Assembly (NCBI RefSeq): GCF_900107665.1
Contig: NZ_FNQT01000001.1
Span: 107,742-171,741 of the forward strand
Reading direction: 5' to 3'
Origin: Haloplanus vescus
Lineage (GTDB): Archaea > Halobacteriota > Halobacteria > Halobacteriales > Haloferacaceae
DNA: 64,000 nucleotides
Below are positions 1 through 22,596 of this stretch, piece after piece. Both the position numbers and the translations under genes were made by a program. Position 1 is the first letter of the stretch. Each line of letters starts with the position of its first letter. The notes below the pieces were generated by a model that worked only from the letters and a program-made list of their open reading frames with translations, had not been told where the DNA came from and did no database searches.

Positions 1-2511
1 CAGACGCAGTGGTCTCCAACGTTACTCGACCGGTCGTGGACCGGGGTTTCGCTACTCGGCTTCCTGCTCTTGCTGGTGCCACTCTACGATATCTGGGACG
101 ACACGGCCAACCTCTCGTGGGACATCGCCACCTCGCTGCTGGAAAACTCCGTGCTCATTGTCCTCTCTCTGGGCCTCGTCTACGGCGGACTGTGGCTCTC
201 GCAACGGGACTGGGAACCGGAGTACAAGTGGACGGTCACGAAGTGGAACCTCGGCGTCGCGCTGGGTATCGGCGCGCTCTACGTGCTCGTCATCTCGCTC
301 CAGCTGTGGGCGATGCACGAACTCAAGCCGTGGATACTGGCCCTCGACGGCGTCCTCTTCGGGTCGGTAACCGCCTTCGGCGTCGGCACCTACAACGCCG
401 CCCAACAGAAGGCGCGGGACGACTTGGAACGGAGTCGCGAGGAGTACCGAACCCTCACCGACGACGCCCTCGACAGCGCGGAAGTCGCTACGGTCGTCTC
501 GGACGCGGAGCACAGTATCGTCTGGACGAGCGAGGCGACGGCGACGTACTTCGGCCTCGACCGTGACTCCATCGCGGACCGCGACGCGCGAACCATCGCC
601 GAAGAGGACTTCGCCGACGCCGTCGAAGACCCCGAGACGTTTCGCGCTCGCGTCCTCGATGCCCTCGACCGCAACGCGGGCGTCGAGGAGTTCGAGTGTC
701 ACGTCCTCGCGACCCTCGACCGTGCGGAGCGTTGGCTCAAACACTGGAGCAAGCCAATCGATAGCGGTCTCTACGAGGGGGGGCGGGTCGAACACTACAC
801 GGACATCACGCCCGTCAAGCGACGGGAACGCGAACTCGACCGCCGCGAGGCGAGTCTGCGCGAGATGTGCGACATCATCTCCGACGCCTCGCGCTCGTAT
901 CACGAGCAGATCGAGGGCCTCCTCGACGTGGGTCGCGACCTGTTCGACGCCGACTACGGGTCGTTCGCTCGCGTCGACTCCGACGCCGGCACGTACGAAG
1001 TCGAGACGCTCCGCGCGGAGCAGGCCGACCTCGAAACGGGCGACGTCGTTCCGCTCGCGGAGACACACTGCGAGCGGATGCTCCAGCAGGCGAAGACGCT
1101 CCAGTTCGGGACGCGCCCCTTCGACGTCGACGAGAAGGCGTACGGGACGGACCGCGGGTTCGAGACGTACGTCGGGACACCCGTCTACGTCGACGGCGAG
1201 ATATACGGGTCGCTCTGCTTCCTCAATCGCGACGCGGCGACGGCCTTCGACGACTGGGAACTGACGATGGTCGAACTGATGAGCAACTGGATGGGGTACG
1301 AACTCGAACAGGAACACCGGCGCGAGGAGCGACGCAAGCGCCTCCACGACCAGGCGTCGAAGTTCGAGGACATCGTCGAGACGGTCGACAACTACGCCAT
1401 CTTCACGCTCGACGCCGACGGACACGTCACCTCGTGGAACGACGGCGCGAGACAGATTAAGGGCTACACCCACGACGAAATCGTCGGCGAGCACTTCCAG
1501 ACGTTCTACCCCGACGCCGACGTGGCGGACGGCCTGCCGTCACGACTGCTCGCGGAAGCGCGGGAGACGGGACAGGCCCGCCACGAGGGGTGGCGGGTTC
1601 GCCGGGACGGCGACCGGTTCTGGGCCGACGTGACTATCGCCGCCCGCCACGACGACGACGGCGAGCACATCGGCTACACGAAAATCGTCGAGGACCTGAC
1701 CGAGCAACGAGAGCGCGAACGCGCCCTCCAGCGCCAGCGCGAACGCCTTGAGTTCATGAACCGCATCATCCGCCACAACATCCTGAACGGCCTGAACCTC
1801 ATCAACGCCCGCACCGAACTGCTCGAATCGCGGTTCGCGGACGATGCCGACGCCCAGACGCATCTCGACACCATCAGCACGCGGGTCGACGACCTCTCCG
1901 ACCTCATCGACACCATGCGGTCGTTCATGAACGCCATCCTCGACGCCGAGGACCACGACACGGAAGCGCTCGCGGTTCGGCCGGAACTCGAAGCGAAGAT
2001 AGCGCTCGCTCGCCAGTCGTACGACGCCGAGTTCGACGTGCACGACCTGCCCGACGAGAGCGAGGCGGTCCTCGCCGACACGCTCCTCGGCGAGGTGTTC
2101 GAGAACGTCATTTCGAACGCCGTCGTCCACAACGATGCCGAGACGCCCCGCGTCGGAATCTGGACGTCGACGACGACCCGCGAGGTGCCTGTCGGCGCCG
2201 AGAGCGGTGAGCCAGTCGTGAACCGCCCCGTTCGGCAACTCGACGAGGAGACGGCTGTCGAGGAGCGGTCGGCGCTGGTCGTCCACGTCGCCGACAACGG
2301 TCCGGGCATCCCCGACGACCAGAAAGCGGCCGTCCTCGAGAAGGGCGTCTCCGAACTGAAAGCGCCCGGCAACGGCTTCGGCCTGTATCTCGTCAAGGAG
2401 ATGATGGACACCTACGGCGGCGCGGTCGACATCCGCGACGCCGACGGCGACTGCGGGACGGTGTTCGATCTGATATTCTTGCAGCCACCGACCGACGAAT
2501 CGGCGCGTTAG
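1..2511 (+). CDS. Membrane sensor histidine kinase, 5' end cut by window edge
   Basis: The frame is open from base 1, so the true start lies upstream and the N-terminus is missing. In visible numbering, several hydrophobic helices occupy about residues 12-130. They are followed by a PAS domain (about 150-270), a GAF domain (290-430), a second PAS domain (450-560) and a HisKA segment. The phospho-acceptor His lies in RHNILNGLN (His codon 1774-1776). The HATPase domain has an N box (ENVISNAVVHN), G1 (DNGPGIP) and G2 (GNGFGLYLVKEMM). By family it autophosphorylates at the membrane and passes phosphate to a receiver. The response regulator 38 bp downstream is the likely partner, though it has its own TATA-like box. 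The signal sensed cannot be told from sequence. Confidence 0.93.
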   Translation, partial: QTQWSPTLLDRSWTGVSLLGFLLLLVPLYDIWDDTANLSWDIATSLLENSVLIVLSLGLVYGGLWLSQRDWEPEYKWTVTKWNLGVALGIGALYVLVISLQLWAMHELKPWILALDGVLFGSVTAFGVGTYNAAQQKARDDLERSREEYRTLTDDALDSAEVATVVSDAEHSIVWTSEATATYFGLDRDSIADRDARTIAEEDFADAVEDPETFRARVLDALDRNAGVEEFECHVLATLDRAERWLKHWSKPIDSGLYEGGRVEHYTDITPVKRRERELDRREASLREMCDIISDASRSYHEQIEGLLDVGRDLFDADYGSFARVDSDAGTYEVETLRAEQADLETGDVVPLAETHCERMLQQAKTLQFGTRPFDVDEKAYGTDRGFETYVGTPVYVDGEIYGSLCFLNRDAATAFDDWELTMVELMSNWMGYELEQEHRREERRKRLHDQASKFEDIVETVDNYAIFTLDADGHVTSWNDGARQIKGYTHDEIVGEHFQTFYPDADVADGLPSRLLAEARETGQARHEGWRVRRDGDRFWADVTIAARHDDDGEHIGYTKIVEDLTEQRERERALQRQRERLEFMNRIIRHNILNGLNLINARTELLESRFADDADAQTHLDTISTRVDDLSDLIDTMRSFMNAILDAEDHDTEALAVRPELEAKIALARQSYDAEFDVHDLPDESEAVLADTLLGEVFENVISNAVVHNDAETPRVGIWTSTTTREVPVGAESGEPVVNRPVRQLDEETAVEERSALVVHVADNGPGIPDDQKAAVLEKGVSELKAPGNGFGLYLVKEMMDTYGGAVDIRDADGDCGTVFDLIFLQPPTDESAR

Positions 2512-8360: not shown

Positions 8361-8960
8361 ATGAAACGCCGCACGCTTCTCGCGACGCTCGGCGTGGCCG
8401 CCACGGCCGGCTGTGCCGGCGTCGCGCCGCCCGAAACTCCCCCGTCGGAATCGACGACTGCGACTTCGACTTCGACCACCACCGCGAGCGACCGACACGA
8501 GTGTCCGTCGTTCGCGTCGGACCCGGACCGGACGGTCTGTTGGCCCACCGAGGACCGATTGGAGAGTCGGGTCTACCTCAACGCCTCGATACCCGTCTTC
8601 GAACCCGACCCGGACGACTCGGTGGTGGAGTCACTCGAATTCGTCCTCCACGACCAGCATCCGGACCACCCGGTCGAGGTCACGCCCGACGACTGGCGTA
8701 TCCACCGGCGGACGACGGCTGGCTGGAGCCCCGTTGCCTCGGAATCGTCAACCGAGTCGCGGGAGACGATTCGGCCCGGCGAGCGGTACACCTGGTCGCT
8801 CACGTTCCAGACCCATCCCACGCCGCAACCGGCCGATACCACGTACATCGTGGAGTCGCTCGAAGACGGCACCTACGCGTTCCAGACGGTGGCGCGCCTC
8901 CTCGGCGACGAGACGCTCCGGGTTGAGTGCGTCGCTATCGTCGAGGTGCGGCGGCAGTAA
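8361..8960 (+). CDS. Tat-type lipoprotein of unknown function
   Basis: 199 residues. The N-terminus has MKRRTLLATLGVAATAGC: twin Arg, a hydrophobic stretch and a lipobox with Cys18. This is followed by a Ser/Thr-rich linker (about 30-55), as in haloarchaeal lipid-anchored surface proteins. The mature part (55-199) looks like an all-beta domain with DDWRIHRRTTAGW and ETIRPGERYTWSL, a pattern seen in immunoglobulin-like haloarchaeal lipoproteins. An ATG 27 nt further upstream would place charged residues before the signal; 8361 is preferred. It converges with the NYN gene 12 bp away. Confidence 0.8.
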   Translation: MKRRTLLATLGVAATAGCAGVAPPETPPSESTTATSTSTTTASDRHECPSFASDPDRTVCWPTEDRLESRVYLNASIPVFEPDPDDSVVESLEFVLHDQHPDHPVEVTPDDWRIHRRTTAGWSPVASESSTESRETIRPGERYTWSLTFQTHPTPQPADTTYIVESLEDGTYAFQTVARLLGDETLRVECVAIVEVRRQ

Positions 8961-14030: not shown

Positions 14031-14046
14031 ATTAGGTCTGCCTAAA
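14031..14046. promoter_or_regulatory. DtxR-type iron box 1, distal operator of the uptake operon
   Basis: ATTAGGTCTGCCTAAA: arms TTAGG and CCTAA are separated by 4 nt, the same spacing as the other boxes in this region. It lies upstream of the TATA-like ATTTAACTA (14058-14066). Confidence 0.75.
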
Positions 14047-14066: not shown

Positions 14067-14082
14067 TTTAGGCTGGCCTAAA
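14067..14082. promoter_or_regulatory. DtxR-type iron box 2, overlaps the start region of the uptake operon
   Basis: TTTAGGCTGGCCTAAA: 7-bp arms TTTAGGC/GCCTAAA around TG. It ends 4 nt before the ATG at 14087, so a bound repressor would cover the expected transcription start of this leaderless operon. Confidence 0.85.
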
Positions 14083-14086
14083 CACT

Positions 14087-15217
14087 ATGACGAGAGAGAC
14101 GACTGGGCGGCGACTCCCGACGCGGCGCGAGTTTCTGACGTACGGTGGCGCCGTCGCTTCGGGGGGTGCGCTCGCGGGGTGTGCGGGTGCGGCGACGACT
14201 GCGTCCTCGGACGGCGACGCGGGGTCGTCGCACTCCGTGTCTATCGAACCGATGGGGTCGGTGTCCTTCGACGAGGTGCCCGAGACGTGGGTGGCGAACA
14301 ACGGCAGTTGGGCGGACATGGGCATCGCCCTCGGCCTCGAACCGCCGAAGGCAGTCTGGCTCACGGACCGCTATCACACCCAGTATTACGACTCGATTCC
14401 GGGCGTCTCCGTCGACAAGAGCGGGATGGTGGCGCTCTATCAGGACGGCGTGAGCAAGGAGCGATTCTACGCGCTCGGGGCGGACGTCCACGTCATGGAC
14501 CCGAACTTCCTCATGAATCGCTTCGGTGGCTGGGACCGCTCCGACGTGGACGAAATCGAGCGCAACGTCGCCCCGATGTTCGGCAACTGCATCTACGCCC
14601 AGCATTATCCGTGGCACGAGGACTACCGGTACTACACCCTCTTCGAGGCGTTCGAAAAGCTCGCCCAGGTGTTCCAGCGCACCGACCGCTACGAGGCGTT
14701 CGAGGGCGTCCACGAGTCGTTCCAGACCAACCTCGCGGACGCCATCCCGTCCGAGAGCCCCGAAGTCGCCGTCCTGTGGGGCGTCGGCAACCAGCCAGAG
14801 TCGTTCTACCCCTACGTCATCGGCGGCGGGACGGGCTTCAAACACCTGCGTGACCTCGGCGTCGACGACGCCCTCGCGACGACGGACGTGAAGGACTTCC
14901 ACGGCAGTCGTGCGGAAATCGACCTCGAAACCGTCCTCGAAGTCGACCCCGAGGTGCTGTTGCTCCGCGGCTACGAGTCGATGTCTACGGGCGAGTTCCA
15001 AGACACGGTCGTCTCCTTCCTCGACGCCCACGACACGGCGAGCCAACTCACCGCCGTCGAGAACGGCGACGTCTACCGCGCCGGCAGCCTGTATCAGGGG
15101 CCGATTACGAACCTCGTCCTCACTGAACGCACGGCCCGGCACCTGTACGATTTCGAGAGCGACCTGTTCGACCGGGAGCGCGTCGCGGACATCGTCACGG
15201 GGTCGTTCGACGCATGA
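14087..15217 (+). CDS. Iron/siderophore ABC transporter substrate-binding lipoprotein 1
   Basis: 376 residues. A Tat signal (RRLPTRREFLTYGG) ends in a lipobox LAGC (Cys31), so it is lipid-anchored outside the membrane. The mature protein follows the class III metal/siderophore binding fold: SHSVSIEPMGSVSFDEVPETW at the start, ADMGIALGL near residue 84, an Asp/Trp-rich middle (GGWDRSDVDEIE) and LTAVENGDVYRAGSLYQGP near the end. It is the first gene of an operon with the FecCD permease and ATPase, and two iron boxes flank its TATA box, so it should be made under low iron. The ligand (Fe3+-siderophore, other chelate or haem) cannot be told. Confidence 0.93.
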   Translation: MTRETTGRRLPTRREFLTYGGAVASGGALAGCAGAATTASSDGDAGSSHSVSIEPMGSVSFDEVPETWVANNGSWADMGIALGLEPPKAVWLTDRYHTQYYDSIPGVSVDKSGMVALYQDGVSKERFYALGADVHVMDPNFLMNRFGGWDRSDVDEIERNVAPMFGNCIYAQHYPWHEDYRYYTLFEAFEKLAQVFQRTDRYEAFEGVHESFQTNLADAIPSESPEVAVLWGVGNQPESFYPYVIGGGTGFKHLRDLGVDDALATTDVKDFHGSRAEIDLETVLEVDPEVLLLRGYESMSTGEFQDTVVSFLDAHDTASQLTAVENGDVYRAGSLYQGPITNLVLTERTARHLYDFESDLFDRERVADIVTGSFDA

Positions 15218-15289: not shown

Positions 15290-16414
15290 GTGGCGAGTGA
15301 GTCGGTGAGCGAGGGGACGGCCGCGCCGACTCGCTCGGTGGCGTGGTTCGACTCCTCGCTGGTCGCGCTCTGTCTCGGGAGTCTCGCCGTCATCGTCGCC
15401 GGCGGGTTGATTCAGGTGAGTTTCGGCGCGTACTCGATGTCTATCGCGGAGGCGTGGCAGGCCGTCCTCGACCCGACGGTCCTCTTCGACCCGCAGGCGT
15501 GGCGCGCCTTCCTGCTCGGGGGACAACTCCCCGAGATGGGCAACCAGAGCCTCATCGTCTGGAACATCCGACTGCCGCGCGTGTTCGTAGCCGTCCTCGT
15601 GGGGATGAATCTCGCCGTCTCCGGTTCCATCTTCCAGGCGGTCACGCGCAACGAGCTCGCCAGCCCGTTCATCCTCGGTGTCTCCTCGGGCGCGGGACTG
15701 ATGATTCTGCTCACGCTGGTCCTCTTCTCGGGGCTGTCGACGTTCCTGCCGATAATCGCCGCTGTGGGCGGCTCGGTCGCCTTCCTCATCGTCTACGTCA
15801 TCGCGTGGCAGAACGGTACGTCGCCGGTCCGCCTCGTCCTCGCGGGCGTCATCGTCGGCACCGTGTTCAACAGCCTGCAGACGGCTATGTTCTTCTTCGC
15901 GGACGACATCGGCGTCGTCCAGTCGGCCATCGCGTGGACGACGGGGTCGCTGACGGGCACCGACTGGGAGCAGGTCCGGTTGGCGCTCCCGTGGACTGTT
16001 CTCGCGATGGGCCTCGCGCTCGTCAGTTCGCGACAGTTGAACGTCCTCTTGCTCGGCGAGCGGACGGCGAAGTCGCTGGGGATGCGCGTCGAGACGGTGC
16101 GCTTCGCCCTCTCCGGGGTGGCCGTCCTCGCCGCCGCGGCGAGCATTGCCGTCGCGGGCATCGTCGGCTTCGTCGGCCTCATCGTCCCGCACATGGTCCG
16201 CACCGTCGTCGGCAGCGACTACAAGCGACTGGTCGTCGGCTGTCTGTTCGCCGGCCCCGCGCTGATGGTCGTCGCCGACGTGGGCGCGCGCCTCGGCATG
16301 CAACTGCTCACGGGAGCCAGCTCGCAGATACCGGTCGGTATCGTGACCGGCCTCGTCGGCGGGCCGTACTTCCTCTATCTGATGCGCCGGCAGGACAACC
16401 TCGGTGACGTTTGA
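15290..16414 (+). CDS. FecCD-family iron ABC transporter permease
   Basis: 374 residues and about ten membrane helices, with the BtuC/FecCD hallmarks: IRLPRVFVAVLVGMNLAVSGSIFQAVTRNELASPFILG near residues 95-130, LVLAGVIVGTVFN near 180, and the cytoplasmic coupling region GIVGFVGLIVPHMVR near 290. By family two copies form the channel that takes the ligand from the binding protein. The GTG at 15290 is 72 bp after the binding-protein gene. Its TGA overlaps the ATG of the ATPase gene by one base, so the two are translationally coupled. Confidence 0.93.
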   Translation: MASESVSEGTAAPTRSVAWFDSSLVALCLGSLAVIVAGGLIQVSFGAYSMSIAEAWQAVLDPTVLFDPQAWRAFLLGGQLPEMGNQSLIVWNIRLPRVFVAVLVGMNLAVSGSIFQAVTRNELASPFILGVSSGAGLMILLTLVLFSGLSTFLPIIAAVGGSVAFLIVYVIAWQNGTSPVRLVLAGVIVGTVFNSLQTAMFFFADDIGVVQSAIAWTTGSLTGTDWEQVRLALPWTVLAMGLALVSSRQLNVLLLGERTAKSLGMRVETVRFALSGVAVLAAAASIAVAGIVGFVGLIVPHMVRTVVGSDYKRLVVGCLFAGPALMVVADVGARLGMQLLTGASSQIPVGIVTGLVGGPYFLYLMRRQDNLGDV

Positions 16415-17298
16415 TGACAGGGAACGACTCACAGCTTCGCTCGGCCGTCTCGGACGCCCGCGACGACGCGATGCTCGCGGGCGAGCAACTGACGCTCGGC
16501 TACGGCGACACCCGTATCATCGACGGGGAGTCACTCGCCGTCGACCCGGGCTCGGTCACCGCGCTCGTCGGCCCGAACGGCTCCGGGAAGAGCACGCTCC
16601 TGAAGGGACTCGCGGACCAACTCGCGCCCCGGTCCGGGTCGGTGCTCCTCGACGGGCGCGAGGTGAGCGACTACGACGCCAAGGCCCTCGCCCAGCGACT
16701 CGGACTCCTCTCACAGGAGCGCACGTCGCCGGAGTCGATCACCGTCGAGGACCTCGTGTACCACGGCCGCTACCCCCATCGTGGCTTCTTCGACCCTCCG
16801 AACGACGACGACCAGCGGGCGGTCGAACGCGCCCTCGACCTTGCGGGGTGTGCCCACCTCCGGGACCGAGAGGTGGGCAGTCTCAGCGGCGGACAGAAGC
16901 AGTTGGCGTGGATTGCGATGGCGCTCGCCCAGGAGACGGACGTGCTCCTCCTCGACGAACCGACGACGTTTCTCGACCTCCACCACCAACTGGAAGTGCT
17001 GGAGATAATCGAGACGCTGCGCGACGAGAGCGACGTGACGGTCGTCGTCGTCCTCCACGACCTCGAACAGGCGGCGCGGCTGGCAGACCACGTTGTGGCG
17101 CTCAGAGACGGCGAAATCCGTGCCCGCGGGTCGCCCGAGTCGGTCGTCACGCAGGACCTTCTCGCGGACGTGTTCGCCGTCGACGCAGACGTGACGTGGG
17201 CGGAGCGAGGGCCGCGAATCACGCCGCTTCGCGCCCGTCACGACGAGACAGACGAGGAGCCGGCACGACAGCCGACCCTCGAACAGCCGACGGACTGA
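16414..17298 (+). CDS. FecE-type ABC transporter ATP-binding protein
   Basis: 294 residues. Walker A GPNGSGKST at residues 53-61, Q-loop near LLSQERTSPESI, signature LSGGQKQLAWIAMALAQ near residue 152, Walker B VLLLDEPTTFLDL near 172 and the H-loop VVVLHDLEQA near 205. These are typical of iron-chelate importers. The N-terminal 20 residues are an acidic extension. It completes the binding protein-permease-ATPase operon and would drive uptake. The second binding protein in this window has no permease of its own and may share this pair (inference). Confidence 0.94.
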   Translation: MTGNDSQLRSAVSDARDDAMLAGEQLTLGYGDTRIIDGESLAVDPGSVTALVGPNGSGKSTLLKGLADQLAPRSGSVLLDGREVSDYDAKALAQRLGLLSQERTSPESITVEDLVYHGRYPHRGFFDPPNDDDQRAVERALDLAGCAHLRDREVGSLSGGQKQLAWIAMALAQETDVLLLDEPTTFLDLHHQLEVLEIIETLRDESDVTVVVVLHDLEQAARLADHVVALRDGEIRARGSPESVVTQDLLADVFAVDADVTWAERGPRITPLRARHDETDEEPARQPTLEQPTD

Positions 17299-17332: not shown

Positions 17333-17350
17333 TTTTAGGCTAACCTAAAA
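17333..17350. promoter_or_regulatory. DtxR-type iron box 3, upstream of the surface-protein gene
   Basis: TTTTAGGCTAACCTAAAA, an 18-bp palindrome with one mismatched pair, placed upstream of the TATA-like box TTTATA (about 17362-17367). Confidence 0.88.
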
Positions 17351-17370: not shown

Positions 17371-17386
17371 TTTAGGCTAGCCTAAA
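17371..17386. promoter_or_regulatory. DtxR-type iron box 4, at the start of the surface-protein gene
   Basis: TTTAGGCTAGCCTAAA, a perfect 16-bp palindrome ending 4 nt before the ATG at 17391. With box 3 it brackets the TATA box, the same two-operator layout as at the uptake operon. Confidence 0.9.
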
Positions 17387-17390
17387 ACTG

Positions 17391-18593
17391 ATGCTGCCAG
17401 ACAAACTCCATCGTAATCGAACGGTTCTCACAGTGTTGTTCGCGTGTGCGCTCGTCGTGGGCGGGGGAATGAGCGTCGTCGAAGCGTCGCCGCCCGCGGT
17501 CACGGTGTCGTCGGTAAGCGTCTCCGACGACGAACCCGAGACGGGGGATTCGATTACCGTCACGCCGACGGTCCGCCTCTCGGGCGAGGGGAGCGGGACG
17601 TTCGAGGTAACCGAAGTGACGCTCGAAGACGCGAGCGGGACGCAGTACTCCGAGGCGGATTCACTCGGGACGCTCGGGGCCGGTGACACCATCGACGTTC
17701 CGCTCAGCGCGACGTTCGACACCGCGGGTCGGACGAAACTCCTCGTCCACGTCCGGGGGATGCAGTACGACGCCGACGGCAACCGACTCGGCGTGGTGAC
17801 GACCATGCATCCGACGTACGTGACCGTCTCAGAGCCCTCGACGGAGACGGAGACGCCGCCACAGTTGAACGTCGACACCGAGGACCTGGTCGCCGGCTCT
17901 GAATCCACCGTGACTGTCACCGTCTCCAACGGTGACGACGAGCAGGTGACCGACCTCTCGCTCCGACTGTCCGGACTCGGGGAGAACCAGACGCGGATTC
18001 AGCCCGAACTCGGCGCACACAACTCGACGACGTTCACGTTCGATGTCACGCCGCCCGAGGCGGGAACGCACTCGCTCGACGCGACGCTCACCCACGCCGA
18101 CGGGTCGGTCTCGACGAACGAGTCCGTCACGGTCCAGTCGCTGAACGGCGAGGCCGTCGTCCACGCGACGACCGTCACCGAGAACGGGTCGACCGACCTG
18201 CGGTATCACGTCGCCAATCACGGGAACGCTCCCATCGAGAACGTCGTCGTCTCGGGCGCCGCGGTGGGCACGGCCCTCCCGACGACGGTCATCCAGTCGG
18301 TCGAACCGGGGACCACCGAGACGGCGACGGTCGAACTGAACGAGCGCCCGACCGGTCCCGCGACGATATCCGCGACGTACGACGTCGGCTCGACGACCGG
18401 TTCGACCGACCAGTCGGTCCGATTCGCCAACGAGACGGCCGACGCCGAGTCGGCGTCGCAGGCCACCACCGAGACGCCGGGTTCGGGGACAGCACCGGCC
18501 ACGTTCGGCGCGGTGCCGCTGCTGACCGGGGGCGTCGTCGCCGCGGGCTCCATCATCGGCTATCGGAGCTGGCGTGGGCGCTTCGACCGATAG
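17391..18593 (+). CDS. Iron-box-controlled surface protein with CARDB-like beta domains, two-ended membrane anchor
   Basis: 400 residues. It has an N-terminal hydrophobic signal/helix (about 12-33), then two or three Ig-like/CARDB-type beta domains (about 35-350; TVTVTVSNGDDEQVTDLSLRL is typical). A Thr/Ser/Gly-rich stalk (about 350-370) and a C-terminal membrane helix (about 372-392) follow, ending in the Arg-rich tail RSWRGRFDR. Several N-glycosylation sequons (NQT, NST, NES, NGS, NET) suggest an outside location. No catalytic residue is seen. The promoter carries two strong iron boxes, so it should be made under iron limitation and may help capture the chelate or shape the cell surface. 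Function is unknown. Confidence 0.82.
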   Translation: MLPDKLHRNRTVLTVLFACALVVGGGMSVVEASPPAVTVSSVSVSDDEPETGDSITVTPTVRLSGEGSGTFEVTEVTLEDASGTQYSEADSLGTLGAGDTIDVPLSATFDTAGRTKLLVHVRGMQYDADGNRLGVVTTMHPTYVTVSEPSTETETPPQLNVDTEDLVAGSESTVTVTVSNGDDEQVTDLSLRLSGLGENQTRIQPELGAHNSTTFTFDVTPPEAGTHSLDATLTHADGSVSTNESVTVQSLNGEAVVHATTVTENGSTDLRYHVANHGNAPIENVVVSGAAVGTALPTTVIQSVEPGTTETATVELNERPTGPATISATYDVGSTTGSTDQSVRFANETADAESASQATTETPGSGTAPATFGAVPLLTGGVVAAGSIIGYRSWRGRFDR

Positions 18594-18631: not shown

Positions 18632-19816
18632 ATGAGCGGTACTGATACGGACGGCGAACGGACGACGCGCCGACGGACGATTGCTGCCGTCGGTGCCGCT
18701 ATCACCGGGGCCGTCGCCGGCTGTACCGGGCAGCAGTCGTCAACGGCGGAGACGACGACCACCGCCACGCACAGCGTCCAGTTGTCGCCCGCCGGGCGCG
18801 TCGAGTTCGACGCCGTCCCGGAGACGGTGTTCACCGTCTTCCCGCAGTATGCGGACATGGCCGTCGCGCTCGGCCACGGCGACGCCGTCAACGCCGTCTA
18901 CGTCCCCGAGATGTCCGGCACGACGATGAATCACTACTACCGCCGCCTCGACGGTGTCTCCTTCGAGTGGGAGGGCCTGCAGGACCCCCTCACCGACGGG
19001 CTGGTGAAAGAGCAGCTGTACAGCCTCGGGAGCGACGTCCACCTCGCGGACCCGGCGTGGGCGTCGGCACAGACGGGGTGGGACCGCTCCGACGTCGACG
19101 AAATCGCGTCACAGGTCGGGCCGTGGGTCGGCAACTTCTACAGCGGAACGCGAGCCACGCCGCCCGAGGGCTACGACGGCTACGAGTACTACCCCCTGTG
19201 GGACCTGTTCGGCAAGGTCGCGGCCGTGTTCCGAGAGCAGGCGCGATACGAGGCGCTCGCGGCCGTTCACGCTGACTTGCTCTCGACCATCCAGTCGAAC
19301 TTGCCGCCCGAGTCGGAGCGCCCGACCGCCGTCCGAGCGACCCTCGCCAACGACGGCCAGTCCTTCTACACGTACCACCTGAACGCCCCCGGCTACTGGC
19401 TGGCCGACACCCGACCGCTCGGCGCCGTCGACGCCTTCGGCGACGGCGAGTGGGACGGCCTCTGGGGCACCGTCGACTACGAGACGATGCTCGAGGCCGA
19501 CCCCGACGTGTTCCTCCACCTCTGGGGCCTCACCCCGAACTACAGCATGGCGTCGGTCCGGGATTCCCTCGCCACCCACGAGGTGGGCAGTCAGCTGACG
19601 GCGGTCCAGAACGACCGCGTCTACCCCGGCGGCATGCGCTACCAGGGGCCGCTGATGAACCTCTTCCAACTCGAGATGGGGGCCAAGCAGCTCTACCCCG
19701 AGCAGTTCGGCGAGTGGCCCGAATACGAGGACGGCGCGCCCTACCCCGAGATTCCGGACGACGAGTGGCTGTTCGACCGCCGACGCGTCGCGTCCATCGT
19801 CGGAGGTGGCGCATGA
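18632..19816 (+). CDS. Iron/siderophore ABC transporter substrate-binding lipoprotein 2
   Basis: 394 residues. An Arg-rich N-terminus (TTRRRTIAAVG) leads to a lipobox VAGC (Cys31). The mature protein shares the layout of binding protein 1: HSVQLSPAGRVEFDAVPETVF, then ADMAVALGHG, GWDRSDVDEIASQ, FGKVAAVFREQARYEAL, and LTAVQNDRVYPGGMRYQGPLMN near the end. The loops are well diverged, so it probably binds a different chelate. It has a perfect iron box of its own. It is followed not by a permease but by three small uncharacterised genes with overlapping or close ends. Confidence 0.92.
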   Translation: MSGTDTDGERTTRRRTIAAVGAAITGAVAGCTGQQSSTAETTTTATHSVQLSPAGRVEFDAVPETVFTVFPQYADMAVALGHGDAVNAVYVPEMSGTTMNHYYRRLDGVSFEWEGLQDPLTDGLVKEQLYSLGSDVHLADPAWASAQTGWDRSDVDEIASQVGPWVGNFYSGTRATPPEGYDGYEYYPLWDLFGKVAAVFREQARYEALAAVHADLLSTIQSNLPPESERPTAVRATLANDGQSFYTYHLNAPGYWLADTRPLGAVDAFGDGEWDGLWGTVDYETMLEADPDVFLHLWGLTPNYSMASVRDSLATHEVGSQLTAVQNDRVYPGGMRYQGPLMNLFQLEMGAKQLYPEQFGEWPEYEDGAPYPEIPDDEWLFDRRRVASIVGGGA

Positions 19817-20709
19817 GTACGGCGACGCTCGCGGACCTCCGAGCGTACATCGAACGCCTCAGCGACCCCGAGGGGTCGTACTACCTCACCTGCGGGCGGC
19901 TGGGCGAGCGACCGGTGCCCGCCGTGGGGATGCGGTTCGGCGACCGAACGACGGCCTGTGCGGCCGCCCGCGCGGTCGAGCAGTACCGCGCGACGCTCCG
20001 CCGGTACGACGACCGCTTCCCGTACTACGACGTCATCGTCTGCGAGGAGGCCGGTTGCGAGGGCGACGAACCAGCGACCGACGAGCCGTGGTCGCTCTCG
20101 GAACCCGTCCTCGACCGACGCCGTGAGTCTCGCCAGACGCTCGTGGCGTTCTGTCACCGCGTCGCCGCCGCTGTCTTCGAGGCGGTGTCCGACGCCGGCC
20201 ACGACGCCGTGGAGGCGGCCGTCATGGACACGTACTTCGACCTCGCCGAGACAGTTGTGGACCCGGACGCGTTCTGCCTGCGACTGCTCGAACACCTCGC
20301 GGCCGAACTCGACGCCCGACTCTCCCCGGCGGCACAGATAGACGTCCTCGTCGCCGCCGCGACGCGACTCCGGCAGGACGACGTGACCGAGCGCCCCGTC
20401 TCCGCGACGCTCGCGTCACTCCGCGACCACGGCCTCCTCGGTCACTACACGCAGTCGCCGTGGTCCGTCGACGACGAGGCGGGGACGCGCTCCGTCGTCG
20501 TTCGGCTGTCCGACTACGCGCTCACGCCGCGCCGCGGCCGACTGCCCGTCCTCCCACTCGTCCTCGACCTGTACCGACGCCGCCCCGACTGGCCGCCCGC
20601 CTCGCTCCGCGTCGTCGACGACGGCGACGACTGGGAGGTGACAGTCGTACTCGCTCGCACCGCCGACCCGACTGCCCTCGTGAACGTCCCAATCGGAGCG
20701 AGCGCCTGA
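19813..20709 (+). CDS. Uncharacterised 298-residue protein in iron-box operon
   Basis: The ATG overlaps the stop of binding protein 2 (ATGA), so translation is coupled. The soluble, Arg/Asp-rich protein shows three parts. The N-terminal part (1-80) contains SYYLTCGRLGERPVPAVGMRFGD and VICEEAGCEGDE with three Cys. A helical middle (about 100-195) is rich in Ala and Glu (FCHRVAAAVFEAVSDAGHDAVEAAV). The C-terminal alpha/beta part (200-298) has two RLSDYALTP/VVLARTAD strands. I recognise no enzyme motif. It may correspond to a haloarchaeal domain of unknown function seen beside siderophore genes (DUF7551-like, from memory). Cytosolic location is likely as no signal is seen. Confidence 0.8.
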   Translation: MSTATLADLRAYIERLSDPEGSYYLTCGRLGERPVPAVGMRFGDRTTACAAARAVEQYRATLRRYDDRFPYYDVIVCEEAGCEGDEPATDEPWSLSEPVLDRRRESRQTLVAFCHRVAAAVFEAVSDAGHDAVEAAVMDTYFDLAETVVDPDAFCLRLLEHLAAELDARLSPAAQIDVLVAAATRLRQDDVTERPVSATLASLRDHGLLGHYTQSPWSVDDEAGTRSVVVRLSDYALTPRRGRLPVLPLVLDLYRRRPDWPPASLRVVDDGDDWEVTVVLARTADPTALVNVPIGASA

Positions 20710-21485
20710 TGACGGTGACGACACACGTCGCGCAGGCGATAGAGCGTGTCCGCGCCGAGCGCGCGGCCGTCGAGCGGCGACGCGACGCGTTCGAAACGTT
20801 CGCCGAGCGCGTGCAGGGGCTCTCCCCCGAGCCGTCGTCGACCTCCGTCGGCGTCGCGGCTGTGGCGGGCACGCGACGGCAGGCGAGCGGTGACGCCTGT
20901 CGGCAAGTCCGGACGGCCTTCGCGGAGACGGTCCGACCACACAGCGTCGCCGACGCCGACGACGCCGAACCGCTCCTCGAGACCATCCGCGCCGAACTCT
21001 CCGACACCATCGCCGTCGCCCTCGCGCCGACGACCGACTCGTCGTTCTCGCCCACGCTCAAGCGCGCCATCCTCTCCGAGGTGGCGACGCGGAAAGCCGA
21101 AAACGACCTCCTCGACCGCGCGCTCGGCCGCGAGCTGGCCCACCTCGACGACGCTCGCGAGGATATCGACGACATCACCGGCTGGATTGCCGACGCGGAC
21201 GAGACGCCGCTCCTGAACCTCGAGTTCGAGGCGCTCGCCGACCGGCACGAGACGCTCGACGCCCACCGCGACCGGTGTTCGACCGTCGCGCGTCGCCGCC
21301 AGCAGTTCCTCCGTGAGACGACGAGCCGAGGGTCCGAGCCCGGGGTCGGCCACTGGCAGGTCGTCTCGTACCTGTACTCGGACTTCCCGGTCGACCACCC
21401 GCTGTTGGCGACCGTCGCCCGCCTCGACGACGCCTGCGCGACCTGCCAGCGTACCGTCCGCGACCACCTCGTTCGGAGGGTCTGA
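20709..21485 (+). CDS. Uncharacterised 258-residue helical protein in iron-box operon (DUF7260-like)
   Basis: The start ATG overlaps the previous stop (TGATG). The protein is almost wholly helical: a coiled-coil-like N-terminus (IERVRAERAAVERRRDAFETFAERV), a long central helix region, and a C-terminal part with two Cys pairs' worth of spacing (RLDDACATCQRTVRDHLVRRV, CxxC near residue 244). The pattern resembles haloarchaeal DUF7260 proteins from memory. No signal peptide or membrane helix is seen. Position says it works with binding protein 2 under low iron; the role is unknown. Confidence 0.78.
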   Translation: MTVTTHVAQAIERVRAERAAVERRRDAFETFAERVQGLSPEPSSTSVGVAAVAGTRRQASGDACRQVRTAFAETVRPHSVADADDAEPLLETIRAELSDTIAVALAPTTDSSFSPTLKRAILSEVATRKAENDLLDRALGRELAHLDDAREDIDDITGWIADADETPLLNLEFEALADRHETLDAHRDRCSTVARRRQQFLRETTSRGSEPGVGHWQVVSYLYSDFPVDHPLLATVARLDDACATCQRTVRDHLVRRV

Positions 21486-21489
21486 CACC

Positions 21490-21609
21490 GTGTGGCCCTT
21501 CCCTTGTCGACGCCGCGCCCGCGCTTGGGCCGGCGTCTACGTCGGCCTGTTCGGCGCACCCGACGAGCGAACGGACGCCGAGACAGCGACCGACGAGGTG
21601 TCCGAATGA
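21490..21609 (+). CDS. 39-residue small protein candidate (GTG start)
   Basis: GTG at 21490 opens a short frame (MWPFPCRRRARAWAGVYVGL...) ending TDEVSE at 21609, 4 bp after the 258-residue gene. It has a Cys and an Arg-rich head, a short hydrophobic middle and an acidic tail. The tight spacing and acidic tail suggest a real co-translated mini-protein, but without comparison across genomes this is uncertain. Confidence 0.45.
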   Translation: MWPFPCRRRARAWAGVYVGLFGAPDERTDAETATDEVSE

Positions 21610-21654
21610 CCCGTCCACCCTCCAGCAACGCTGATACCACGACTCTCCGCTACA

Positions 21655-22050
21655 ATGAGTGAGACTACCCGCTACCTGCTCGCCCTGTATCGCCTGACCG
21701 GCGGCCACGACGACCCCGTGCCGCCCAGCGATGTCGCCGACGCCGTCGAGCGGTCGCCCGCGGCCACGACCGAGATGTTACAGCGACTCGACGAGCGCGG
21801 CATCGTCGACCACGAACCCTACGAGGGTGCGACCCTGACCGCCGAGGGAGAAGACACGGCGCGTGACCTGCACCAGACGTACGTCACACTCACCCGGTTT
21901 TTCCGTGACGTGCTCGAACTAGAAAACTACGAAGACGAGGCGCTAGCGCTCGCGGGGACGGTGAGCCCAGTCGTCATCGACCGACTCACCGAAACGTTGC
22001 TCGAAGACGCCGACGCCGCACCGACCGAACTGTGGCTCGAATCCGACTGA
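21655..22050 (+). CDS. DtxR-fold transcriptional regulator lacking the usual metal ligands
   Basis: 131 residues. The N-terminal winged helix (1-65; SDVADAVERSPAATTEMLQRLDERGIVDHEPYEGATLT) matches DtxR/MntR, and a shortened helical dimerisation domain follows (66-120). Aligned by eye to DtxR, every metal ligand is replaced: Met10 by Arg, His79 by Tyr, Glu83 by Thr, His98 by Glu, Cys102 by Leu, Glu105 by Ala and His106 by Gly. There is no SH3-like third domain. It closes the iron-box operon 45 bp after the mini-gene. It may bind the TTAGGC palindromes, but iron sensing by the classical site looks impossible. Confidence 0.87.
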   Translation: MSETTRYLLALYRLTGGHDDPVPPSDVADAVERSPAATTEMLQRLDERGIVDHEPYEGATLTAEGEDTARDLHQTYVTLTRFFRDVLELENYEDEALALAGTVSPVVIDRLTETLLEDADAAPTELWLESD

Positions 22051-22056
22051 CGGTAG

Positions 22057-22596
22057 TTACGCCGCGTCGGTGACCAGCGTGTCGTCTTCGAGGTAGTGTT
22101 CGAGGTGGTGGGCGTGTTCCTCGACACCGATGAGTTGCTCGCGGAGCATGTGCGCGGTGGCGTGGTCGCCGAGTCCCTCGGCGAGTTCGATGTGCTCGCG
22201 GTAGCTCTCGATGATGTCGCCGTACATCTCGAGGTCGTTCGCGAGCGACGTGCGGACGTCGTACACGTCCTCGTCTTCGGGTTCGACTGTCGACGCCTCG
22301 GTGAGCGCCGGCATGCTCGCGTGCGGGACGCCGCCGATTGCCTGCAGGCGCTCTGCGATTTCGTCCGCCGCCGCCTCGACGGCCTCGTAGGCCTCCTGCA
22401 GGAAGACGTGGATGTCGCGGAACTCCGCACCCTCGACGTTCCAGTGGTGCTTGTGGAGCTGGTGATAGAGGACGTACGCGTCCGCGAGGTCCGTGTTCAG
22501 TGCCTCGATAATCTGCTCGGTCTTCTCCTCGTCAAGTCGAACCGGGTTCTCGCCCACCGTGCCTGCCTCCTGCCGAACGGACTTCTGCGTGTTCAT
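22057..22596 (-). CDS. dps: DNA-protecting ferritin-like protein Dps (DpsA)
   Basis: 179 residues. Ferroxidase ligands of the Dps family are visible: YHQLHKHHWNVEG near residue 45 and FRDIHVFLQEAYEAVEAAADEIAERL near 60-85. The C-terminal helices (EHIELAEGLGDHATAHMLREQLIGVEEHAHHLEHYLED) are longer and His-rich, as in Halobacterium DpsA. By family it forms a dodecamer that oxidises Fe2+ and stores iron, and protects DNA from peroxide. The ATG at 22596 is preferred over an upstream in-frame ATG that would add 14 residues. It converges with the DtxR-fold gene, 6 bp apart, so iron storage sits directly beside iron uptake. Confidence 0.95.
   Translation of the reverse strand: MNTQKSVRQEAGTVGENPVRLDEEKTEQIIEALNTDLADAYVLYHQLHKHHWNVEGAEFRDIHVFLQEAYEAVEAAADEIAERLQAIGGVPHASMPALTEASTVEPEDEDVYDVRTSLANDLEMYGDIIESYREHIELAEGLGDHATAHMLREQLIGVEEHAHHLEHYLEDDTLVTDAA

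Follow-up and report, generated by a model that had tools for sequence, protein, structure and literature searches.

A conserved DtxR-fold regulator of Halobacteria that lacks the classical metal ligands and is encoded in an iron-box operon

The last gene of a five-gene operon in the 64,000-nucleotide stretch of Haloplanus vescus DNA analysed here (the window) encodes a regulator that is, by fold and phylogeny, a homologue of the DtxR superfamily, and in which every classical metal ligand is substituted. The family to which it belongs is real and conserved but mis-annotated in databases, where it carries the label 'metal-dependent transcriptional regulator' that its sequence contradicts. Our preferred reading, to which we give an even chance, is that the protein regulates without metal and that the iron signal lies in its level, which iron-sensing paralogues would set through iron boxes.

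Domains, metal ligands and fold of the regulator

The DtxR DNA-binding domain (Pfam PF01325) is recognised at residues 2-59 with 44 bits against a cut-off of 26, while the metal-binding/dimerisation domain (PF02742) scores 22.6 bits against a cut-off of 27. Ligand positions were compared in one multiple alignment that combined 32 homologues with DtxR and with the D8M form of MntR, and in which all ligands of the DtxR reference carry their published numbering. DtxR residues M10, H79, E83, H98, C102, E105 and H106 correspond to R6, Y76, T80, E93, L97, A100 and G101 of the regulator, identical to the replacements (Arg, Tyr, Thr, Glu, Leu, Ala and Gly) claimed in a first-pass annotation of this DNA. 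The primary site (M10, C102, E105, H106) is absent, being occupied by R6, L97, A100 and G101, and is also gone in the orthologues. The ancillary site (H79, E83, H98) is likewise absent, with Y76, T80 and E93 in its place, and the SH3 domain that would supply E170 and Q173 is missing. In the columns of MntR positions 8, 11, 77, 99, 102 and 103 the regulator has R, L, Y, L, A and G, so that the ligand columns of the Bacillus subtilis protein are empty too; the alignment, which the annotation had proposed as a check, thus bears out the annotation. Its wording that all ligands are replaced holds for the seven substitutions and has to be qualified in one respect, since a carboxylate, E93, remains at the H98 column; this lone Glu is no metal site. 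No cysteine is found in the 131-residue protein. As neither metal site could be found in it, the regulator is not to be filed as a metalloregulator of the DtxR/IdeR or MntR type.

An AlphaFold2 model built from the window protein and 50 orthologues has a pLDDT of 87.5, with disorder confined to the last ten residues. The closest solved structures are DR2539, MntR, DtxR and IdeR. Against DtxR bound to DNA (1ddn_A) the model gives a Z score of 16.1 and an rmsd of 2.0 over 114 residues, and pairs its residues 1..115 with DtxR 5..120, end points that agree with the sequence alignment. For the dimerisation domain, the PF02742 score is under the cut-off and the helices are present in the model. The winged helix had been described as intact, and the model keeps it. 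The model points to a two-domain DtxR fold for which dimerisation and DNA binding would be expected, although fold alone is no proof of function; the regulator may still act on DNA in the manner of DtxR.

Orthologues and selection

Orthologues of the regulator share about 41-64% identity in protein searches, and the next paralogue about 40% or less. A profile search across the class separates orthologues, at about 139 bits and up, from other proteins, at about 127 bits and down. Their distribution is patchy, with members in six or more family-level groups of Halobacteria. Conservation was analysed in two overlapping samples, of 51 and 41 rows, each of which includes the window protein. Tyr occupies DtxR position 79 in 50/51 and 38/41 rows, and positions 79/83/98/102/105/106 are mostly Y/S/E/M/A/G. 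In these two samples no row keeps a full metal site, neither a conserved Cys column nor a conserved His at the site is found, and the majority of sequences are cysteine-free. Judged by these rows, the loss of ligands is beyond chance and fixed in the clade. The suggestion of a metal-blind DtxR protein, made for the single gene, would accordingly apply to the clade as a whole. Sensing through heme, an Fe-S cluster or thiols by the regulator itself was rejected as unlikely on the same evidence.

The regulator gene is under purifying selection, with dN/dS below 1 in 36/36 pairs of close orthologues and typically 0.2-0.5. These ratios, together with the conservation of the sequence, led to the rejection of a pseudogene.

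Operon, iron boxes and conserved setting

The features of the region are listed in Table 1. The regulator is the last of five co-directional genes (18632-22050) that overlap or are separated by gaps of at most 45 nt. The claim that it lies in an operon with a perfect iron box proved correct, a box of the form TTAGGNNNNCCTAA being located 4 nt before the first of the five genes.

Table 1. Positions of the genes and promoter elements around the regulator in the window
Feature	Position	Strand	Remark
Two perfect iron boxes	14032-14045, 14068-14081	+	Before first substrate-binding protein gene
Iron/siderophore-type substrate-binding protein	14087..15217	+	
FecCD-type permease	15290..16414	+	
ABC ATPase, FecE-like	16411..17298	+	
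Two perfect iron boxes	17335-17348, 17372-17385	+	Before CARDB gene
CARDB-domain surface protein	17391..18593	+	In iron-box cluster
Perfect iron box TTAGGCTAGCCTAA	18614..18627	+	4 nt before first ATG of regulator operon
Second iron/siderophore-type substrate-binding protein (Peripla_BP_2)	18632..19816	+	Operon gene 1
DUF7552-DUF7551 protein, 298 aa	19813..20709	+	Recurrent regulator neighbour
DUF7260 protein, 258 aa	20709..21485	+	Recurrent regulator neighbour
Micro-ORF, 39 aa	21490..21609	+	GTG start, RRRARAWAGVYVGLFG
Metal-ligand-free DtxR-fold regulator	21655..22050	+	131 aa, without SH3/FeoA domain
dpsA, second DpsA paralogue	22057..22596	-	Convergent with regulator
Conserved asymmetric element TTTTAGGCCATGCGAAAAA	22650..22668	-	Upstream of dpsA TATA-like box

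Perfect boxes number 5 in the window and 17 in the genome, against 2 for a reversed control pattern. Of the boxes inspected elsewhere in the genome, several stand, at distances of the leaderless type, ahead of genes for substrate-binding proteins, for a redox protein and for other products. Iron boxes are often paired, 36-37 bp apart (14032/14068, 17335/17372 and many loci of relatives), with one box upstream of the presumed TATA and the other just before the start codon. At about 8 kb of contig C1 of the same genome (L197, 4028 onwards), a PAS histidine kinase gene begins 2 nt after an iron box, and the N-terminal helical part of this kinase resembles, by eye, DUF7551 of the window operon.

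The setting was compared in 56 named loci from 20 genus groups. A perfect iron box is present in 53/56 loci and the control pattern in none, and 126 boxes were observed in the 56 loci where about 3.5 would be expected at the rate of the genome of the window. The box lies at most 300 bp upstream of the regulator in 26/56 loci and at most 2.2 kb upstream in 40/56; at genus level these numbers are 6/20 and 12/20, with a box anywhere in the locus in 19/20. Most of the near-upstream boxes come from Halorubrum and Natrinema. Control by an iron box within 2.2 kb upstream does not extend to every locus, as 16/56 have no perfect box there. DpsA is encoded at most 3 kb from the regulator in 41/56 loci. 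The DUF7551 and DUF7260 neighbours are recurrent, yet missing from many loci that possess the regulator.

A micro-ORF or tail with an RxRAR.W...Y motif is found before the regulator in three genera (21490-21609 in the window; L265, 6597-6782; L264, about 8700-8910), and Haladaptatus and Haloferax mediterranei have counterparts of the micro-ORF ahead of the regulator. The two annotated H. mediterranei genes directly upstream of the orthologue, E6P09_17310 and 17315, belong to the iron-uptake genes that dropped together with the siderophore synthesis genes under denitrifying conditions, with log2FC of -3.20 and -4.11; the changed iron genes tabulated in that study do not include the regulator (PMC11218638). 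The reading frame between these two genes and the regulator overlaps the regulator start codon. Downstream of the regulator, many loci (L137, 5441-6000; L148; L160; others) contain a box-driven small gene with an SGNTDGWI motif, followed in several loci by an amphi-Trp-like gene.

The dpsA gene and its promoter element

The genome contains a further dpsA, distinct from that of the window and sharing 71% identity with it. In the window and in the promoters of L131-L184 the element of the second dpsA, TTTTAGGYNNNRCGAAAAA, is fixed in position about 72 nt before the ATG and upstream of the TATA, an activator-like location. The left half of the asymmetric element is an iron-box half, and several core dpsA genes carry the more symmetric TTTTNGGNNNNCCNAAAA at that position. 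TTTTAGGYNNNRCGAAAAA seemed altered in three regulator-free genomes with this dpsA type, clearly so in two. It is nevertheless present in one genome (G194) that has no regulator, and hence is independent of it. Variant boxes (TTTAGG N5 CCGAAAA) are common in genomes without the regulator. The notion of a regulator-specific operator at dpsA is thus unsupported.

Paralogues and descent

Three more clear DtxR genes are found in the same genome (L001, L002 and L003). L001 and L002 possess the complete ligand set D10/H79/E83/H98/D102/E105/H106 and a FeoA-type C-terminus, and their ligands are essentially invariant across 27 FeoA-type sequences. The first-pass annotation had also named a search for full-ligand DtxR genes elsewhere in the genome, and these two (D/H/E/H/D/E/H) answer it. 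L003 is universal, being found in 59/59 genomes, and adjoins sufC, sufB, sufD and a ferritin-like gene (about 968 kb on C1 for the SUF-linked paralogue with sufCBD; L189, 6505-7442). Its ligand positions read Q/Y/E/R/R/E/A and it ends in a conserved CPDCFD...C tail; with the invariant CPxCF...C pattern, the SUF-linked paralogue is a candidate Fe-S or redox sensor. Three homologues (L255-L257) combine the full DtxR set M/H/E/H/C/E/H with a tail of the same Cys type.

The phylogenetic tree joins the ligand-free clade (100/100), which includes the regulator, with the SUF-linked TroR-type clade (96/80) as two separate sisters (support for the pairing 99/90). Forms with full ligands and a Cys tail branch off outside this pair. 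With 1.7 changes per column the ligand-free clade has a long stem, so that the details of its placement need care. The simplest reading is a stepwise loss, in which the metal sites were partly lost and later sites and tail entirely.

In Haloferax volcanii the primary iron regulator is reportedly TroR (HVO_0863). The SUF-linked gene of Haloferax massiliensis is 42 kb away from a FeoA-type gene, a spacing that fits the 44 locus numbers from HVO_0819 to HVO_0863, and SirR of H. mediterranei is of the FeoA-bearing type (PMC11218638). On this gene spacing and domain content, the SUF-linked paralogue is very probably TroR. The published primers for HVO_0863 gave no match in a Haloferax relative. The regulator is not TroR, because it falls outside the TroR clade and does not have its tail. 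A second pair of a ferritin-like and a TroR-type gene is found on a plasmid of Haladaptatus halobius (L265, 13195-14117), where it adjoins dpsA, an iron ABC transporter and the ligand-free regulator.

Proposed mechanism and alternatives

The iron signal probably reaches the regulator through its own expression and not through metal binding, because the ligands are lost, yet the gene is kept in iron-uptake clusters behind iron-responsive promoters. The regulator would descend from the SUF-linked (TroR-type) lineage by loss of both metal sites. Iron-loaded paralogues would occupy the iron boxes and hold expression of the operon down; upon iron shortage the operon would be derepressed together with the siderophore-type uptake genes, and the regulator would rise. 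It would then dimerise and bind DNA without metal, most likely at TroR-related sites of uptake, DpsA and SUF-type genes, and so modulate the TroR network without being switched by iron itself. Having no metal site, it would not be metal-switchable, so that its abundance would be the signal. Of the earlier suggestion that such a protein might sense iron another way, the part that survives is iron information received through iron-box control of its own operon, which genomics supports well; an Fe-S, heme or redox centre in the regulator itself is unlikely, given that neither a Cys column nor a His at the site is conserved.

For dimerisation of the two-domain layout without metal, MtIdeR deprived of its SH3 domain, which forms a stable metal-free dimer (PMC10317159), may serve as a precedent by analogy. 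S37, P38, A39, E43 and M44 of the recognition helix recur in the SUF-linked paralogue. The full-ligand paralogues have P39/T40, which the regulator does not share, and DtxR positions 39, 40 and 43 are all changed relative to them, for which reason binding to iron boxes by the regulator cannot be assumed. In IdeR, the contacts of Pro39, Ser37 and Gln43 were judged not sufficient or not required alone, with recognition by DNA shape (PMC8464063). This, with the likeness of the helix to that of the SUF-linked paralogue, favours targets shared with TroR.

The regulator could also be an antagonist or a subunit-mixing partner. Produced at low iron, it might pair with subunits of TroR, SirR or Idr in mixed dimers, or take up their operators, and so bring about further derepression as a dominant-negative amplifier. 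The model keeps both the winged helix and the dimerisation helices, the recognition helix is nearest that of the TroR-type paralogue, and in the adjoining DpsA promoters one half of the asymmetric element is an iron-box half; the occurrence of that element in the regulator-free G194 speaks against it, and we consider this account rather unlikely. A wider scheme, possible but tentative, links it to descent: the haloarchaeal DtxR scaffold would have been released stepwise from a full-ligand, Cys-tailed ancestor to a ligand-degenerate TroR responding through Fe-S or redox chemistry, and from there to a blind form that competes or mixes at TroR operators and conveys iron status purely by abundance. 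It is unlikely that another signal has replaced the metal, be it a small molecule or a partner such as the DUF7551/7552 or DUF7260 proteins or the micro-ORF product. The old metal site is filled by conserved Y76, S/T80, E93, M/L97, A100 and G101, which suggests that a pocket has been maintained in some role, and the DUF7551 and DUF7260 neighbours recur; against this, many loci bear the regulator and have no DUF neighbours.

Metal binding through the acidic residues E40, E54, E90, E93 and E95 is very unlikely. They are conserved at 90-100% and E93 stands in the H98 column, but no His, Cys or Met cluster accompanies them, and by homology E54 and E40 are remote from the site, lying in the wing and the recognition helix, respectively. 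Haloarchaeal proteins are, moreover, generally rich in acidic residues. That the gene is a functionless decaying duplicate, as its long stem branch and patchy distribution might suggest, is hardly credible in the face of purifying selection, reading frames that stay intact across six or more family-level groups, and conserved promoters and neighbourhood. The preferred reading remains that of a metal-independent regulator whose amount conveys iron status.

Comparison with known systems

Metal-independent or ligand-lacking DtxR proteins were not found in the literature searched, an absence that is weak evidence. If confirmed, the regulator would be a natural metal-independent DtxR protein, with which dimerisation and DNA binding could be studied apart from metal activation. 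It would also reveal an iron network of two layers, the first reading iron itself and the second the level of expression only.

DtxR and IdeR share with the regulator the two N-terminal domains, the fold and the winged helix (Z 14-16), as well as the iron-uptake context and the TTAGG...CCTAA boxes, but their primary and ancillary ligands and SH3 domain are missing from it and the recognition helix differs at positions 39, 40 and 43. MntR of Bacillus subtilis and DR2539 of Deinococcus possess the same two-domain layout without SH3, and DR2539 (8pvt) is the best PDB sequence match of the regulator; their Mn2+ ligands are absent from it. The SUF-linked sister, very probably TroR, shares with the family of the regulator Gln and Tyr at ligand positions 10 and 79, although the window protein itself has Arg at 10, and retains E83, E105 and the CPxC...C tail, whereas the regulator has T80, A100 and no Cys. 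This sister is universal (59/59) beside sufCBD and the ferritin-like gene, while the regulator defines an accessory haloarchaeal clade. In a model archaeon this sister is reported to be the main regulator of iron; it has no classical site either, and how it senses iron becomes a concrete question about its CPxC...C tail. Finally, SirR and Idr belong to the same superfamily and are encoded in the same genome; unlike the regulator, they possess full ligands and a FeoA-type C-terminal extension, and they are the candidate binders of the iron boxes.
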